From a virus: 20,076 nt of DNA. Below are positions 6,142 through 19,714 of this stretch, one piece after another (within the stretch, counting starts at the first letter, position 1; each line of letters opens with the position of its first letter). The notes under the pieces are model-generated. The model was not told where the DNA came from. It did no database searches and saw nothing but the letters and a program-made list of their open reading frames with translations. Both the position numbers and the translations under genes were made by a program. Location: positions 1-20,076 of the IMG/VR virus record IMGVR_UViG_3300025601_000166. One strand, given 5' to 3'.

Positions 6142-7002
6142 GTGCCTATTTTGATGGACTATAATCAGGTTATCCTGGCAACACTATTTGCCAATTTGGG
6201 TAATCATAAAAATGCAGAAATAGATGAAAATATGATACGTCATATGTTCTTAAATTCTCTTCGCGCAAATCGGAAAAAGTTTACCGAAGAGTTCGGGGAA
6301 ATGATCGTATGCGCGGATGGTAAAAATTCGTGGCGAAAAGAGGCATTCCCTTACTACAAGGCGGGTCGAAAGAAAGGCCGGGATGAATCTGAACTAGACT
6401 GGGGTGAGCTTTTCCGTATCATCAATCTTTTACGCAGTGAACTAATTGAGTATTTTCCGTACAAAGTACTTCACTTCGACCGATTAGAAGCGGATGATAT
6501 TATTGGCGTGCTTGCACATAAATTAGGCACTGAACTAAATATGGGTGCTGAAAAAGTGCTTGTATTGTCAGGTGATAAAGACTATATCCAACTACAAACA
6601 TATGCAAATGTCGACCAATATAACCCAGTGCTCAAGAAATGGGTGAGAGATCCAACTCCCGGTAACTATCTAAATGAACATATCATTAAAGGTGACAAGG
6701 GCGATGGGGTACCAAATATTTTATCAGCAGATAATGTATTAGTCATTGGTGAACGACAAAAAACCATGACTGCTAAAAGACTGGCAGCACTACTAGAAGG
6801 TCCAGACACAATGGATGAACTTACTAAGATTAGGTACTTCCGCAATAAGCTAATGATTGACCTCAAAGAAACACCACAAAAATATCAAGATATGATACTA
6901 GAAGAATATGAAAAAGAAAAAGATTTTGGTCGCTCGAAACTATTTAACTTTTTTGTAGAAAAACGACTTAAAAACTTAATTACAGATATCGGTGACTTCT
7001 AA
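6142..7002 (+). CDS. rnh: T4-type RNase H (5'-3' flap exonuclease)
   Basis: The 286-aa protein has the FEN-1/T4 RNase H acidic sites in order: D6 (LMDYNQV), D59 in 'VCADGKNSWRKEAFPYYK', E116/D118/D119 in 'LEADDIIGVLA', D145/D147 in 'LSGDKDYIQLQ', and D185/D188 in 'KGDKGDGVPNI'. The arginine/lysine-rich 'YYKAGRKKGRDE' loop is the usual helical gateway. It removes RNA primers and trims 5' flaps on the lagging strand. Length is close to the T4 enzyme (305 aa). The start is GTG at 6142 after GAGGA (6127-6131). The 3' end is overlapped by 27 bases by a convergent homing endonuclease gene, but the C-terminus appears intact. Confidence 0.92.
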   Translation: MPILMDYNQVILATLFANLGNHKNAEIDENMIRHMFLNSLRANRKKFTEEFGEMIVCADGKNSWRKEAFPYYKAGRKKGRDESELDWGELFRIINLLRSELIEYFPYKVLHFDRLEADDIIGVLAHKLGTELNMGAEKVLVLSGDKDYIQLQTYANVDQYNPVLKKWVRDPTPGNYLNEHIIKGDKGDGVPNILSADNVLVIGERQKTMTAKRLAALLEGPDTMDELTKIRYFRNKLMIDLKETPQKYQDMILEEYEKEKDFGRSKLFNFFVEKRLKNLITDIGDF

Positions 7003-7437
7003 AAAATCTCTAACATATCCTAGACAAACAGCAGAATATCCTTTTTTACCCACGGTTTCTTTCCAAATGGGATCATTTACTGTTTTAGTTTGTTTGGCTA
7101 TTGACTCACTACTTCGTTTTTCTCTGTTTGCCCCATCGATGCCGTTTTCTTCGATCAGATTGGCCCATAGTGAGGATTCTACTATATGATTATCTTTACA
7201 AAATTTTCTTGCTACATCAGTTATACTGGCATCATAATACCAATCGCTATTCCAAATATGTATAGATTTAGCATTGTGTTTTTTAATGTGATTTATCCAT
7301 CTTTTGCCAGATCCCGGGTATTTTTCTATATCCTCTGTGATGGTCTTACCAAAATATTTCAGATCGCAATGAGAACATTTCTTTATATAAAGCCTCGTGG
7401 GTCTAATAGATGCTATTTTATCTGATGCAAAATTCAT
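6976..7437 (-). CDS. GIY-YIG-like homing endonuclease
   Basis: This 153-aa protein matches the free-standing homing endonuclease type common in T4-like phages. 'TRLYIKKCSHCDLKYFGKT' supplies the GIY- and YIG-equivalent segments (LYI 16-18, YFG 28-30) with a CxxC insertion, and 'YPGSGKRWINHIKKH' follows. Then comes the acidic 'SSLWANLIEENGIDG' segment and a NUMOD3-like tail (SESIAKQTK...NDPIWKETVGKK). It is a lone minus-strand gene between two plus-strand genes, with its stop inside the RNase H gene. A late promoter and a conserved leader hairpin lie upstream. The short tail may mean that it has lost DNA-binding repeats. Confidence 0.8.
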   Translation of the reverse strand: MNFASDKIASIRPTRLYIKKCSHCDLKYFGKTITEDIEKYPGSGKRWINHIKKHNAKSIHIWNSDWYYDASITDVARKFCKDNHIVESSLWANLIEENGIDGANREKRSSESIAKQTKTVNDPIWKETVGKKGYSAVCLGYVRDFLEVTDICN

Positions 7438-12119: not shown

Positions 12120-12657
12120 CTACTTATTCTTCCTGCTTTTAGTAATGCCTTTGCGCCAACCGAGAGGGACTTGCTCGTCCCTTTCTATGTATTTGTTAGT
12201 ATGCCCGTCAGTAACAAATATTCTGCCTTTAGTGCTATTAGTTCTGCCTGCATACCAGCCCTCTGGTATGTCCTCATTTGGGCTTATAGATTTATCATTA
12301 TAGCCGTCAGTTATGAAGATATTCCCAGCAAACTTAGCTTTAGATCTCTCTCCGAGTTTCTTTCCCTCAGTAATCTTCCATTCGCGAGTTCCCTTGGTCT
12401 TCTTTGTAGCAGCTGATATTTTTGCGACAACATCTGGGCAATGTGAAGGATTTTCTACCCCTCTATTTTTGATATTAGTTGCTCTTTGAGCTGCTTTAGT
12501 AGATTCAGACTGTGTATGGAATGGCACACCATACTTTTGTAGGCAAGTTTCTAAGTATCGCTGTTTATACTCATTAGTCTGCGTGTATACTTCAGTGCCA
12601 TATTTCTCAAGATTAGTTTGCTTGATTCTACTTTTTATTATCTCGGACTGGAATGCG
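12120..12657 (-). pseudogene. C-terminal part of frameshifted homing endonuclease
   Basis: This open frame continues the GIY-YIG protein encoded at 12638-13021 after a one-base shift near 12658. From the junction it reads 'NAFQSEIIKSRIKQ', 'NLEKYGTEVYTQTNEYKQ' and 'CLQKYGVPFHTQSE', a repeated YG(V/T)-E/P pattern of DNA-contacting modules. It ends with two copies of an 'ITDG..NK.I...E.IP.GW..G' repeat ('FITDGYNDKSISPNEDIPEG' and 'FVTDGHTNKYIERDEQVPLG'), also known from phage endonuclease tails. A GTG at 12527 could start a separate 135-aa piece, but the open frame and homology extend further upstream, so I treat it as part of one broken gene. The restored protein would be about 300 aa. Confidence 0.75.
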
Positions 12658-13021
12658 TTTCCACCCCATAAAGTTCCATCATAATGAGTTTCATCTTATC
12701 AGGATTCATAGCCCCATCATTTTCGTGTCCATTATAGAATCTTAAATTACTTCTTGCCTTTACTTTTCTAAGGAATCTTGTCTCGTAGTTATATGCTTTT
12801 TCTTTTGATTTAAATGTTCTTATTTTTCTAATGACAAACACATTAAGACCATGTTGTTCAATGATTTTCTTTATAGTCTTGGAAGAGGTAGAATAACCGT
12901 CTTCTTTCAATAATTGATCTGGATGGCATCCTTGAGCCCATTTAGCACCAGCGTAATACATGCCGTTGCGAGTATCCTGGATAATATAGAAATATGTCGT
13001 ATAAATAGATTTGCTGGACAT
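12638..13021 (-). CDS. GIY-YIG homing endonuclease, N-terminal part (frameshifted)
   Basis: This 127-aa product has a GIY-YIG domain: 'TTYFYIIQDTRNGMYYAGAK' gives the GIY (YFYI, 10-13) and YIG (YYAG, 22-25) segments. It continues with 'GCHPDQLLKEDGYSTSSK', typical of the phage subfamily, and the catalytic glutamate region 'EKAYNYETRFLRKV' (E80). The last nine residues (VETHSSPR region) are out of frame; the true continuation, ...YGVENAFQS..., is found one base over. The gene is expressed leftward from a late promoter with a conserved leader hairpin. The truncated product keeps the nuclease domain but lacks the DNA-binding tail, so it is unlikely to home. Confidence 0.75.
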   Translation of the reverse strand: MSSKSIYTTYFYIIQDTRNGMYYAGAKWAQGCHPDQLLKEDGYSTSSKTIKKIIEQHGLNVFVIRKIRTFKSKEKAYNYETRFLRKVKARSNLRFYNGHENDGAMNPDKMKLIMMELYGVETHSSPR

Positions 13022-16029: not shown

Positions 16030-16530
16030 ATGAATTACTATGCTGGTATAGGTTCCAGAGAAACACCGGCAGAAGTATTAAAACTAATGACTGCTATAGC
16101 CCAGAGACTATCAAAGCTGGGCTATAGTCTTAGATCAGGCGGTGCTGAAGGTGCTGATATTGCATTTGAAAGTGGAGCAGCTGCCAAACAAATCTTCTTA
16201 CCATGGAATAGTTTTAATGATAAGTATGCTGATGGCAGTTCATATATAATACCGCCTTTAAATACTGAGCTTGCCGAGCAATTTCACCCCGCCGCTAGTA
16301 AACTATCACAAGGTGCACTAAAACTAATGAGCAGAAATAGCTACCAAGTTTTGGGTCCTACGCTAGATGATCCTGTGGATTTTGTTCTTTGCTGGACAAA
16401 GCAAGGAACGCTAGCTGGAGGTACGGCTCAAGCAATGAGAATTGCCATGCATCATAATATTCCTATTTTCAACTTTGGCGGGAATGGTATTGAAGAGTTT
16501 GCTAAACATATGATGCTGTCACTAGGCTGA
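16030..16530 (+). CDS. SLOG/DprA-like Rossmann-fold protein
   Basis: The 166-aa protein has 'YAGIGSRETPAEVLKLM' (4-20), 'LRSGGAEGADIAFESGA' (34-50), 'IFLPWNSFN' and a nucleotide-binding 'WTKQGTLAGGTAQAMRIA' segment. This is the SLOG superfamily, related to DprA and LOG, in a single-domain form that is common in phages. Such proteins bind nucleotides or nucleotide-derived signals, and some process them. It has no DprA-type partner domain. The role could be nucleotide metabolism or interference with nucleotide-signal defence, both inference. It follows the GapR-like gene after two bases and is ended by the terminator at 16571. Confidence 0.75.
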   Translation: MNYYAGIGSRETPAEVLKLMTAIAQRLSKLGYSLRSGGAEGADIAFESGAAAKQIFLPWNSFNDKYADGSSYIIPPLNTELAEQFHPAASKLSQGALKLMSRNSYQVLGPTLDDPVDFVLCWTKQGTLAGGTAQAMRIAMHHNIPIFNFGGNGIEEFAKHMMLSLG

Positions 16531-17049: not shown

Positions 17050-17436
17050 ATGGGAACTTCATCAATGATCGGCATCTGGGACTCAGAAACGGGAAAAGTT
17101 ACTGCGTCGTATTGCCACTATGACGGCTATATCGAACACAACGGGGCTGTGCTTGCTGAACACTACAGCACACCAGAAGCGGCAGATAAGGTTGCAACTG
17201 GTGGATATATCAGTGGTCTTAGTGAAAACTATTCGCGCAGTCGGCAAGAAGCAGTTCATAATGAGCCTGCAGTAGTCTACAAGTCCGTGGAAGATTATCT
17301 TGCTACTGGTGCCGATTATGCGAGTGCTGAATATCTATATCTATTCGATGGAGACATTTGGTTCTTTGCTAGCTGGGACGCTGAAAACTTTTCCCTGTTT
17401 GAAGAAGTTGAAATGAATCTAAAAGCAACAGTATGA
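17050..17436 (+). CDS. conserved phage hypothetical protein, 128 aa
   Basis: The N-terminus 'MGTSSMIGIWDSETGKVTAS' with 'YCHYDGYIEHNGAVLAEHYS' and 'AADKVATGGYISGLSEN' follows a well-known pattern of phage and bacterial proteins ('MGTRSxIGx...V.aiYcHwDGYpehnG.iL..hY'). The C-terminal half has 'EDYLATGADYASAEYLYLFD' and 'WFFASWDAENFSLFEEV'. Function is unknown. AAAGGA (17036-17041) precedes the ATG. It is the second gene of the 16613 operon. Its stop codon lies in the loop of a hairpin. Confidence 0.78.
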   Translation: MGTSSMIGIWDSETGKVTASYCHYDGYIEHNGAVLAEHYSTPEAADKVATGGYISGLSENYSRSRQEAVHNEPAVVYKSVEDYLATGADYASAEYLYLFDGDIWFFASWDAENFSLFEEVEMNLKATV

Positions 17437-17449
17437 CATACTGTTGCTT
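17423..17449 (+). other. hairpin around stop codon of the 17050 gene
   Basis: An 11-bp perfect stem (AAGCAACAGTA at 17423-17433 with 17439-17449) has a TGACA loop containing the stop TGA. No T run follows, so it is not a standard terminator. It may be an RNA processing or 3'-end stabilising structure. Confidence 0.55.
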
Positions 17450-17479
17450 GGACTGAAGAAACTACTGACTAAATAATTG

Positions 17480-17508
17480 TTGACAGTAGAGCCGAATCGG
17501 TATAGTAT
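17480..17508 (+). promoter_or_regulatory. early promoter with CCGAATCGG core
   Basis: TTGACA (17480-17485), CCGAATCGG (17492-17500), then TATAGTAT (17501-17508; TAGTAT at the 17-bp position, TATAGT at 15). The start codon at 17535 is 55 bp from the -35 box. Confidence 0.85.
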
Positions 17509-17534: not shown

Positions 17535-18689
17535 ATGGAACTTACAACTTTTTCAATCCCATCATTTCGTAAGGACGCTATCAAAAAGCGACTTGAAAAA
17601 CTTGCTGGTAAAGCCACTAAATATGGAAATCCTGATATTACTATTAACTTTGGCGATACTAAACTAGTTAATATAAAAACCGAAGATGGCACGCGCGCCT
17701 ACGAATTCATTGATGTTACTGTATCCGGTGAGGTTCCTCAGATCTCTGGTTGGCAACTACAAGCTCGCGTTGAGTTAATGAATGATGAAAACCTTGTACA
17801 TATTGTACCTGGAGTAGAAACACAGCTTTCAAGCCATTTCCGTACGCATAATGGACATTGTGACCATTGTAATACTAATCGGCGCCGAAATGATGTCTAT
17901 GTATTGACTAATAAAACTGAACAAATTGCAGTGGGTCGTTCTTGTCTACGTGACTTCTTAGGAATTGATGACCCTAAAGCTATTGTTAATCGTGCCCAAT
18001 TCTTTGAAGAACTTCGCAACATGCAAGATGAGGATATGATCGGCGGCTTTGGATCATTGGGCTATCTTGATCTACATACAATTCTTTTGCTTTCAGCTGC
18101 GTATATTCGTACTAAAGGATATATCTCGAGGGCAAAACAGCAAGAGACTGGATATGAAACAACCGGTGATGCTGTAATGTTTACCATTCAAAATATACCA
18201 GGATATGAGATAAAAACAACCGAGGCTGATAAGCAATGGGCCGAAAAAACAATTGGTTTCTTCCGGGGTGTAGAACCCTTTGGCAATGATTATATGGACA
18301 ACATTCGTGTTTTAATGAAACAAGATATTATAAAAAATCAACACGTTGCACTTATTGCAAGTTCAGTTATTACTGCACAGCGCGAATTGGCACCTAAACC
18401 AGAGGTAAAACAAAGTAACTTTGTAGGTGAAGTAAAGCAACGGTTAAAAGGGCTCGAACTGGTAGTTGAAAAAATTATCTTTCTCGGGCACGGCGCGTTC
18501 GGCCCTTCCTTTCTGCATCTTATGAAAGACACAGACGGTAATGTATTCTCTTGGATCACTGGTAATAAACTAGAGGCTGATGACGGTGCTATCATAAAAC
18601 TAGATGCTTCAGTAAAGCAACATAAACTATACAACGGTGTAAAACAGACTGTGCTTACTCGCGCACGTCAACTAGAAAGTGTAAACTAA
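17535..18689 (+). CDS. conserved protein with zinc-binding and OB-like regions, 384 aa
   Basis: The N-terminal 90 residues are beta-rich. Residues 108-112 are HCDHC and 'GRSCLRDFLG' follows at 134-143, so C109, C112 and C137 (with a His such as H101 or H108) may hold zinc in a treble-clef-like site with the basic 'NRRRNDVYVL' strand between. A helical middle follows. The C-terminal 90 residues ('RLKGLELVVEKIIFLGHGAF', 'TDGNVFSWITG', 'DASVKQHKLYNGVKQTVLTR') read like a small OB-like barrel. Proteins with the HCDHC..RRR and GxxCLxDFxG motifs occur in phages and conjugative elements without known function. Context with UvsE and the zinc/OB features suggest DNA binding, by inference. Confidence 0.72.
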   Translation: MELTTFSIPSFRKDAIKKRLEKLAGKATKYGNPDITINFGDTKLVNIKTEDGTRAYEFIDVTVSGEVPQISGWQLQARVELMNDENLVHIVPGVETQLSSHFRTHNGHCDHCNTNRRRNDVYVLTNKTEQIAVGRSCLRDFLGIDDPKAIVNRAQFFEELRNMQDEDMIGGFGSLGYLDLHTILLLSAAYIRTKGYISRAKQQETGYETTGDAVMFTIQNIPGYEIKTTEADKQWAEKTIGFFRGVEPFGNDYMDNIRVLMKQDIIKNQHVALIASSVITAQRELAPKPEVKQSNFVGEVKQRLKGLELVVEKIIFLGHGAFGPSFLHLMKDTDGNVFSWITGNKLEADDGAIIKLDASVKQHKLYNGVKQTVLTRARQLESVN

Positions 18690-19714
18690 TGACTGGTAAA
18701 ATTGGATTTGCATGTAAATATTATCACGAAGATCAAACAATAGATAAAAAGCAACTTAATCTTATTGAACAAGCATTGCGACCAAAGTCCACTACAATTA
18801 CATGGCTGAACAGGCAAACCGCAAAAGTTGCTTTTGAAAAACTATGGGGTATACTAGAGCATAATATGCAAAGTACTAACAACCTAGTACAATATGTGGC
18901 AAATCTTGACCCTCAGTTGCGAATACTAAGATTAGGCAGTGACATATTACCTGCATATACTGAACCTACCTGGAGTTGCTTCTGGCAGCAAACCGATGTT
19001 AAAAACTATTGCCAAGAAAAACTTGCAGATATCGGCAAAATTGCAAGACAAGCCAATGTAAGGCTTTCAATGCACCCAGGTGCCTTCTGTGTTCTTGCAT
19101 CTGCCACACCCTCAATTGTAGAAAAAAGCATTCAGGAAATTGAATATCATGCAGATCTAATTCGATATATGGGCTATGGTAATAGGTTTCAAGACTTTAA
19201 ATGCAACGTTCATATTTCAGGTAAAAAAGGACCTGCTGGGATACTTGATATTTTACCAAGATTGTCTACTGAGGCAAGAAACTCAATTACTATCGAAAAC
19301 GATGAAAACGGTTGGGGACTAGATGCAAGTCTGGAATTGGAAAAACACTTGGCGCTTGTAGTAGACATACACCATCACTGGGTTCGCGCTGAAGAATATA
19401 TCTTGCCTACCGATGATAGATTTAAACGAGTGCTTGATTCTTGGCGTGGCGTGCAACCCGTTATTCATTATTCATATAGCAGAGATGAACATCTTCCTAG
19501 TGAATTTAAACATGATACTATGCCTGATATGCCAGAATTGCTAAACACAGGCTATAAAAAGCAAAAACTACGAGCTCACAGTGACTGGTTTCCTAACCGA
19601 CATGTAAATCAATACGCCTTATCATTTCTAGATTATGCAGATATTATGTGCGAATCAAAGATGAAAAATCTAGCAAGCATTAAACTATACAAGGAATATG
19701 CCAATGGGAATTAA
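18689..19714 (+). CDS. uvsE: UV-damage endonuclease (UvsE/UVDE)
   Basis: The 341-aa protein is a UVDE TIM-barrel endonuclease. The metal-binding residues are in the expected strands: 'RLSMHPGAF' (H129), 'NVHISGKKG' (H175), 'ITIENDENGW' (E203), 'VVDIHHHW' (H228-H230) and 'VIHYSYSRDEHLPS', then 'LRAHSDWF' at the end. It nicks DNA 5' of UV photoproducts and other helix distortions, starting an alternative excision repair. T4 uses the unrelated DenV for this job. The ATG at 18689 overlaps the previous stop (TAATG), so it shares the promoter at 17480 with the zinc/OB protein. Confidence 0.9.
   Translation: MTGKIGFACKYYHEDQTIDKKQLNLIEQALRPKSTTITWLNRQTAKVAFEKLWGILEHNMQSTNNLVQYVANLDPQLRILRLGSDILPAYTEPTWSCFWQQTDVKNYCQEKLADIGKIARQANVRLSMHPGAFCVLASATPSIVEKSIQEIEYHADLIRYMGYGNRFQDFKCNVHISGKKGPAGILDILPRLSTEARNSITIENDENGWGLDASLELEKHLALVVDIHHHWVRAEEYILPTDDRFKRVLDSWRGVQPVIHYSYSRDEHLPSEFKHDTMPDMPELLNTGYKKQKLRAHSDWFPNRHVNQYALSFLDYADIMCESKMKNLASIKLYKEYANGN

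Follow-up and report, generated by a model that had tools for sequence, protein, structure and literature searches.

Organization of the locus

The stretch of DNA analysed here, called the window, comprises the 20,076 bases of a virus record, in which the genes are densely packed. It carries a gene for a 384-aa protein, followed on the same strand by uvsE, the gene of a UV damage endonuclease (Table 1). The stop codon TAA of the former (18687-18689) and the ATG of uvsE (18689-18691) have one base in common, in agreement with the overlapping stop and start described in the initial annotation. Since overlapping ORF pairs are common in the window (a by-eye count on the mechanical ORF list gave at least 7 other overlapping adjacent pairs on the plus strand), the overlap with uvsE alone says little. 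Three minus-strand ORFs lying amid the plus-strand genes (6976-7437, 12120-12527 and 12638-13021) resemble by eye parts of homing-endonuclease genes.

Table 1. Features of the locus and related domain occurrences. Positions refer to the window unless a locus name (L) precedes them.
Feature	Position	Strand	Basis and remarks
DprA-like gene (phrog_768 type)	16030..16530	+	PF02481 match under the cut-off (21 bits against 29.6), E 2e-4
Hairpin closing the upstream gene; possible terminator or processing site, without a T run	about 17424..17449	+	RNA fold
Sigma-70-type promoter-like site, TTGACA-17-TAGTAT	17480..17508	+	55 bp 5' of the ATG of the 384-aa ORF
Gene of the 384-aa phrog_2319 protein	17535..18689	+	ATG start; profile match, E 3.5e-73
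N-terminal beta-alpha-beta-beta-beta-beta domain, aa 1-95	17535..17819	+	predicted structure; weak ribosomal S10 resemblance
Putative zinc site, C109-x-H111-C112 ... C137, with R116-x-R118 and V133-G134	17859..17945	+	conservation
Helical middle region, aa 147-290	17973..18404	+	predicted structure; low confidence at about aa 164-175
C-terminal OB-fold domain, aa 294-384	18414..18686	+	predicted structure and conserved residues
uvsE, UV damage endonuclease, 341 aa	18689..19714	+	UvdE profile and solved-chain matches
OB domain after other N-terminal parts	L099:1936-2724, L139:2332-3288, L142:2479-3267, L138:2449-3285		

The RNA fold of 17415-17465 had a minimum free energy of -15.4 kcal/mol (z -5.93), and the stem limits of the hairpin were taken from it. 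The promoter-like site scored 10/12, the top of the 10 sites found in the region, where 9.7 sites would be expected by chance. In all 11 upstream regions compared (the window and 10 relatives) the best promoter-like match was located at -55 to -60, with scores of 8-11/12. When single bases were shuffled within each upstream region, the score was reached by at most 5 of 300 shuffles in 6 regions, by 21-34 of 300 in 4 regions and by 189 of 300 in the remaining one, L017. The position of the site is thus supported by the relatives, the support per region being uneven. Such a site also precedes the corresponding genes of relatives which have no adjoining uvsE. A promoter common to the two genes had been proposed for the window; the promoter-like site was indeed found, and the co-transcription of the 384-aa gene and uvsE is what we infer.

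The downstream gene is, judged by its sequence, a genuine UvdE-type uvsE. Its product matched PF03851 (UvdE) with 132.6 bits (cut-off 24) as well as the chains of solved UV endonucleases (2j6v and others), and the NCBIfam equivalog cut-offs were not reached. The metal-site positions of the solved enzyme, which we take to be H69, H101, H143, E175, D200, H203, K229 (a modified lysine) and H231 with a numbering offset of our own deduction, were compared with the window protein. The equivalents of H101, H143, E175, D200, H203 and H231 are kept, and those of H69 and K229 are E and I, so that the UvdE profile match is accompanied by most of the metal-site residues. In 80 of 80 phage UvsE sequences the counterpart of K229 is I, L, C or M, and the counterpart of H69 is Q or E in most (64 of 77); the remaining metal-site positions tested are invariant among the aligned sequences.

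An uncharacterised family of phages and plasmids

The 384-aa protein matched the profile of phrog_2319, a family of unknown function, practically over its full length (positions 1-394 of the 399 in the profile, E 3.5e-73). Pfam gave no match at E <= 1, and neither a named family nor a solved structure was matched in Pfam, NCBIfam, PADLOC and the PDB (phmmer and profile searches). The profile search of the PDB returned weak matches at chance level, such as ribosomal S11 with E 0.35. On these matches the window protein is an additional member of an existing, uncharacterised family.

The spread of the family was measured by tblastn. Among 50,697 phage records, 282 were matched at E 1e-5 and 557 at E 1e-3, and in 237 and 396 of them, respectively, the match spanned 80% or more of the query; of 72,556 plasmid records, 99 were matched at E 1e-2, 65 of them to this extent. 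From the family the window protein differs in divergence only, the best record among the 60 listed having about 30% full-length identity. The phage carriers include Ackermannviridae, T4-like Aeromonas and Vibrio phages and others; Aeh1, phiAS5, KVP40, Kuttervirus PhaxI and Salicola phage SCTP-2 can be named. In 274 genomes of one bacterial class the sole match was the genome at the centre of the search. Since the family is spread over phages and plasmids and was met in 1 of these 274 genomes, the sequence matches fit a protein mostly of mobile elements. Most of the matches inspected are deposited as 'hypothetical protein'; other labels are 'DNA binding domain protein' and, in the case of a shorter relative which has the C-terminus in common, 'ssDNA binding protein'. 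A literature search, which included the terms 'PHROG 2319' and 'RecT-like ssDNA annealing protein', found no paper on the family.

Domain architecture of the protein

The AlphaFold2 model, built with 34 sequences, had a mean pLDDT of 79.7 and a pTM of 0.62, with block means of 78-93 for residues 291-380. Residues 294-384 form five strands in the model, arranged in the prediction as a closed barrel of the OB type; the C-terminal barrel reported earlier is therefore recovered as a predicted OB barrel. In Foldseek searches of the PDB with this model no match reached E 0.001. The first match was PrgE of pCF10 (E 0.014, probability 0.98), the top rows after it including Potempin A, RPA, human SSB (probability 0.99), POT1 and Rim1; the superposition with PrgE was poor (TM 0.33 by target, rmsd 8.9). 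With VIA, an archaeal RPA-type domain was matched over 83 residues with Z 8.5 and an rmsd of 2.4; this Z is just over the 7-8 which the tool gives as the level of models without a clear match, and it is tied with the OB folds of TSST-1 and tRNA synthetases, which do not bind DNA. Among predicted viral structures there were 39 matches at E <= 0.001. They include a stand-alone Microbacterium phage protein of 97 residues (TM 0.85 by target, rmsd 1.3), and proteins named ssDNA-binding were matched with E 8.9e-6 and E 7.4e-3. An OB fold in the C-terminal domain of the model is likely. Its ligand is less certain, since the RPA-type Z value is tied with those of the TSST-1 and tRNA synthetase domains.

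Conservation was followed in a set of 13 sequences, consisting of the window protein and 12 relatives which had been found independently of the zinc motif. In the OB domain G298, W340, V360, K361 and T372 occur in 13 of 13, H363 in 12 and K370 in 11. On the OB surface, in 32-33 rows of the larger alignment, K361 is present in 97%, Y366 is aromatic or His in 94%, and R376, R378, W340, H363 and K370 are kept in 84-94%; these residues are mostly on the last two strands. The domain is weakly basic at most, having a net charge of +2 in the window protein and a median of +1 over 33 sequences. Bacterial SSB proteins have an acidic C-terminal tip. The window protein ends in TRARQLESVN and has no such acidic tail; in the family the tails vary, a few of 34 being acidic (e.g. 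L132).

The same C-terminal OB domain is common to phrog_2319, phrog_3628, 30451, 27218 and 4095. The latter four, all of unknown function, have an OB domain like that of the window protein but differ in the N-terminal part in the members examined. A DUF3820-like (PF12843) part precedes the OB domain in MyoSmar (27.9 bits, above the cut-off of 22) and in RB43 and a Serratia plasmid (19 and 21.6 bits, below it), and the same place is taken by an anti-TRAP-like stretch in a protein of a Bacillus plasmid (20 bits against a cut-off of 32); only the MyoSmar match passed the Pfam cut-off.

The zinc-type character claimed for the protein has its counterpart in the sequence. The window protein contains H108-C109-D110-H111-C112 and C137, and C109, C112 and C137 are its only cysteines. 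In the set of 13 sequences C109, H111, C112, G134 and C137 are present in all, R116 and R118 in 12 and V133 in 11. Another alignment of 34 sequences (A3) was selected in part by means of the zinc motif, thus its 34 of 34 for C109, H111, C112, R116 and R118 is not independent. With its C-x-H-C ... C pattern the site may hold zinc through the three cysteines and a fourth, uncertain ligand, either a histidine or an acidic residue; the conserved candidates are three Cys and one His. At the level of prediction, therefore, a Cys/His set suited to zinc is conserved in 13 of 13. Named zinc-finger folds were absent from the listed rows of the searches with the N-terminal model, these rows being taken by other parts of the model.

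When the N-terminal 290 residues were modelled alone, the pTM was 0.48. Searches with this model gave nothing firm: the best Foldseek match was YbaA with E 0.084, and the best VIA match, with Z 6.2, a chain of the pre-40S particle. This chain is presumably an S10 homologue, and a Z of 6.2 is within the range which the tool describes as common. Prediction of the structure of both ends thus gave an OB barrel at the C-terminus and no firm match for the N-terminal part. No annealing fold of the RecT/Rad52 type was among the rows listed in the Foldseek and VIA searches.

Neighbourhood of the family genes

In a search of 98 sequences, uvsE was found in none of the flanks of 15 other family loci and the family gene at none of 80 uvsE loci, within the available flanks, some of which are short. 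In this search the matches of L004 and L005 were identical, and the weak relative L010 gave no match at E 1e-4. In 14 whole records, six of which are 204-519 kb long, 4 had the family only (without phrog_8420), 10 had uvsE only (without phrog_2319) and none had both. Among 39 family-bearing records, 18 of at least 100 kb and 21 below 100 kb, UvdE was present in one, phiAS5, at 160.7 kb, the family gene being at 21.8 kb, more than 80 kb apart.

A scan of the neighbours within two genes (121 of 123 proteins of at least 50 aa, at 36 family loci including the window, one L013 and one L100 neighbour being left out) gave 76 PHROG families, each represented by 3 proteins at most. The uvsE gene of the window was the single representative of its family, and head families were among the matches. 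Gene calling relied on a plain script taking the longest ORFs, so some of the genes scanned are spurious. Neither a repeated neighbourhood nor a co-occurrence of the family with uvsE was seen in these comparisons.

Parts of the window's gene order are kept in relatives which have no uvsE there. Three loci (L002, L004 and L016) retain the order Pth2, 15722 gene, DprA-like gene, 17050 gene, family gene, and the fragment L017 retains the last part of the upstream order. When 20 other window genes were searched in the available flanks of relatives, one was found near the family gene in L003 and none in L006-L009.

The DprA-like phrog_768 gene lies not more than 3.1 kb from the family gene in 6 of the 39 records, the distance being 10 and 115 bp in the two Aeromonas phages concerned and 0.6-3.0 kb in the four records of the window clade. 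It is unlinked in Salicola phage SCTP-2, one genome has a weak partial match on another contig, and no match was found in 31 of the 39 records. Because the proximity was noticed post hoc and concerns two lineages, it is a lead only.

In Ackermannviridae the family gene is located between a group with UvsX (or 'DNA repair protein') and helicase and a group with DNA ligase and helicase loader. A Xanthomonas plasmid has it overlapping with the gene of a toprim-domain protein, a topoisomerase gene being close by, and in KVP40 it is flanked by head genes on one side and, at a distance of about 4 kb on the other, by uvsW. A broader link of the family to DNA metabolism is possible. The survey of neighbourhoods thus did not find the uvsE pairing repeated but did find recombinase, helicase and ligase neighbours in Ackermannviridae. 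In phage Tunturi_5 the gene after the family member (L013:7313-8143) matches the PADLOC model NsnA with E 2.2e-16.

Discussion

The initial annotation had proposed a new repair or damage-recognition factor paired with uvsE, which could for instance hand lesions over to UvsE or cover the nicked strand. The one-base overlap, the lack of a terminator-like site between the genes and the predicted OB and zinc-type parts would agree with it, but overlaps are common in the window, and within the available flanks uvsE is missing at 15 of 15 other family loci and the family at 80 of 80 uvsE loci. No whole record of the 14 has both (4 family-only, 10 uvsE-only), and the single UvdE among the 39 family-bearing records is unlinked. 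The partnership with UvsE was rejected on these counts, and we consider such a factor very improbable. Since the place beside uvsE is not repeated in the relatives examined, the 384-aa protein is probably a general DNA-handling helper and not a sensor of UV damage. The simplest reading of the locus is that uvsE arrived 3' of a pre-existing transcription unit.

Two further possibilities have to be weighed. The protein may be a RecT-like single-strand annealing protein, perhaps acting as a recombination mediator with the DprA-like product. At least two public records, those of Tunturi_5 and Salmonella phage vB_CECAV_050, use the name 'RecT-like ssDNA annealing protein', in the latter phage the gene is near UvsX, and the DprA-like gene adjoins in two Aeromonas phages and is close in the window clade. 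However, the records state no ground for the name, and there is no RecT, Rad52 or Erf match in Pfam, no RecT/Rad52-type family being listed in the Pfam search with the window protein or for the 34 members. The DprA-like gene, moreover, is unmatched in most of the family records and unlinked in SCTP-2, and we regard this function as quite unlikely. Somewhat less unlikely, though still doubtful, is a host-takeover or regulatory protein, in which the OB and zinc parts would bind RNA or a host protein and not phage DNA. The promoter-like site of host type, whose position is shared by all 11 upstream regions compared, the weak S10 resemblance of the N-terminal part and the sub-threshold anti-TRAP-like stretch of the Bacillus plasmid protein point in this direction, but the family is found on plasmids too besides phages, several lineages have DNA-metabolism neighbours, and the S10 likeness is in the common range of the tool.

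The reading we prefer, tentatively and at a probability a little short of even, is an accessory DNA-metabolism protein of large phages and plasmids that helps the element to replicate or recombine its own DNA. In its favour are the spread of the family over phages and plasmids, the predicted OB fold, the conserved residues, the DNA-metabolism neighbours in several lineages, and the promoter-like site and upstream gene order kept by relatives which have no uvsE there. The gene would probably be expressed early. The protein would consist of an N-terminal beta/alpha domain, a small zinc knuckle with Cys109, Cys112, Cys137 and His111 or another residue as presumed ligands, a helical middle and the C-terminal OB barrel. 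W340, K361, H363, Y366 and K370 are among the residues by which the barrel would most likely bind ssDNA or, like PrgE, both ssDNA and dsDNA, and the zinc and helical parts would contact a partner or a further segment of nucleic acid. The downstream uvsE would be a locally acquired gene of the same transcription unit and not a partner kept by selection. Several observations speak against this reading of an accessory DNA-metabolism protein: the OB domain has little net positive charge, the window protein lacks an SSB-like acidic tail, the PrgE and VIA matches are weak, and no sequence match connects the protein to a solved structure or a named DNA-binding family. Neighbours are mixed in other phages, e.g. 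the head genes near the family gene in KVP40 and the head families of the neighbour scan, and L006-L009 have none of the 20 other tested window genes in their available flanks.

Known OB-fold proteins offer partial parallels. PrgE of the conjugative plasmid pCF10 (PDB 8s4t) is described as an OB-fold protein which binds single- and double-stranded DNA (PMC11137577). It resembles the window protein in having an OB fold on a mobile element and was its top Foldseek match, but it differs in its chains of 128-136 residues, which leave no room for the other parts of the window protein, and in having no detectable sequence relation to it. With RPA/SSB-type proteins the likeness is a five-stranded OB barrel, with Z about 8 over roughly 80 residues. 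The difference is that the window protein has neither an SSB family match nor an acidic tail, and the same Z is obtained with OB folds of other functions; the bacterial SSB profile was not matched by the window protein, and no SSB family was listed for the 34 members.

A more far-reaching proposal, which we think improbable, is that phrog_2319 could be an unrecognised class of ssDNA-handling proteins of mobile elements, built of a CxHC-C zinc knuckle and a portable OB domain which is also joined to DUF3820-like and anti-TRAP-like parts, and that in some lineages it would form a self-contained recombination-loading module with the DprA-like mediator.

The family is present in several hundred phage and about a hundred plasmid records and is labelled hypothetical in most of the matches inspected. 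A lead towards UV repair, which rested on a neighbour not repeated in the examined relatives, is removed for it. What is new for the family is a testable identity, consisting of a predicted OB domain and a predicted zinc site with three invariant cysteines and the conserved W340, K361 and H363.
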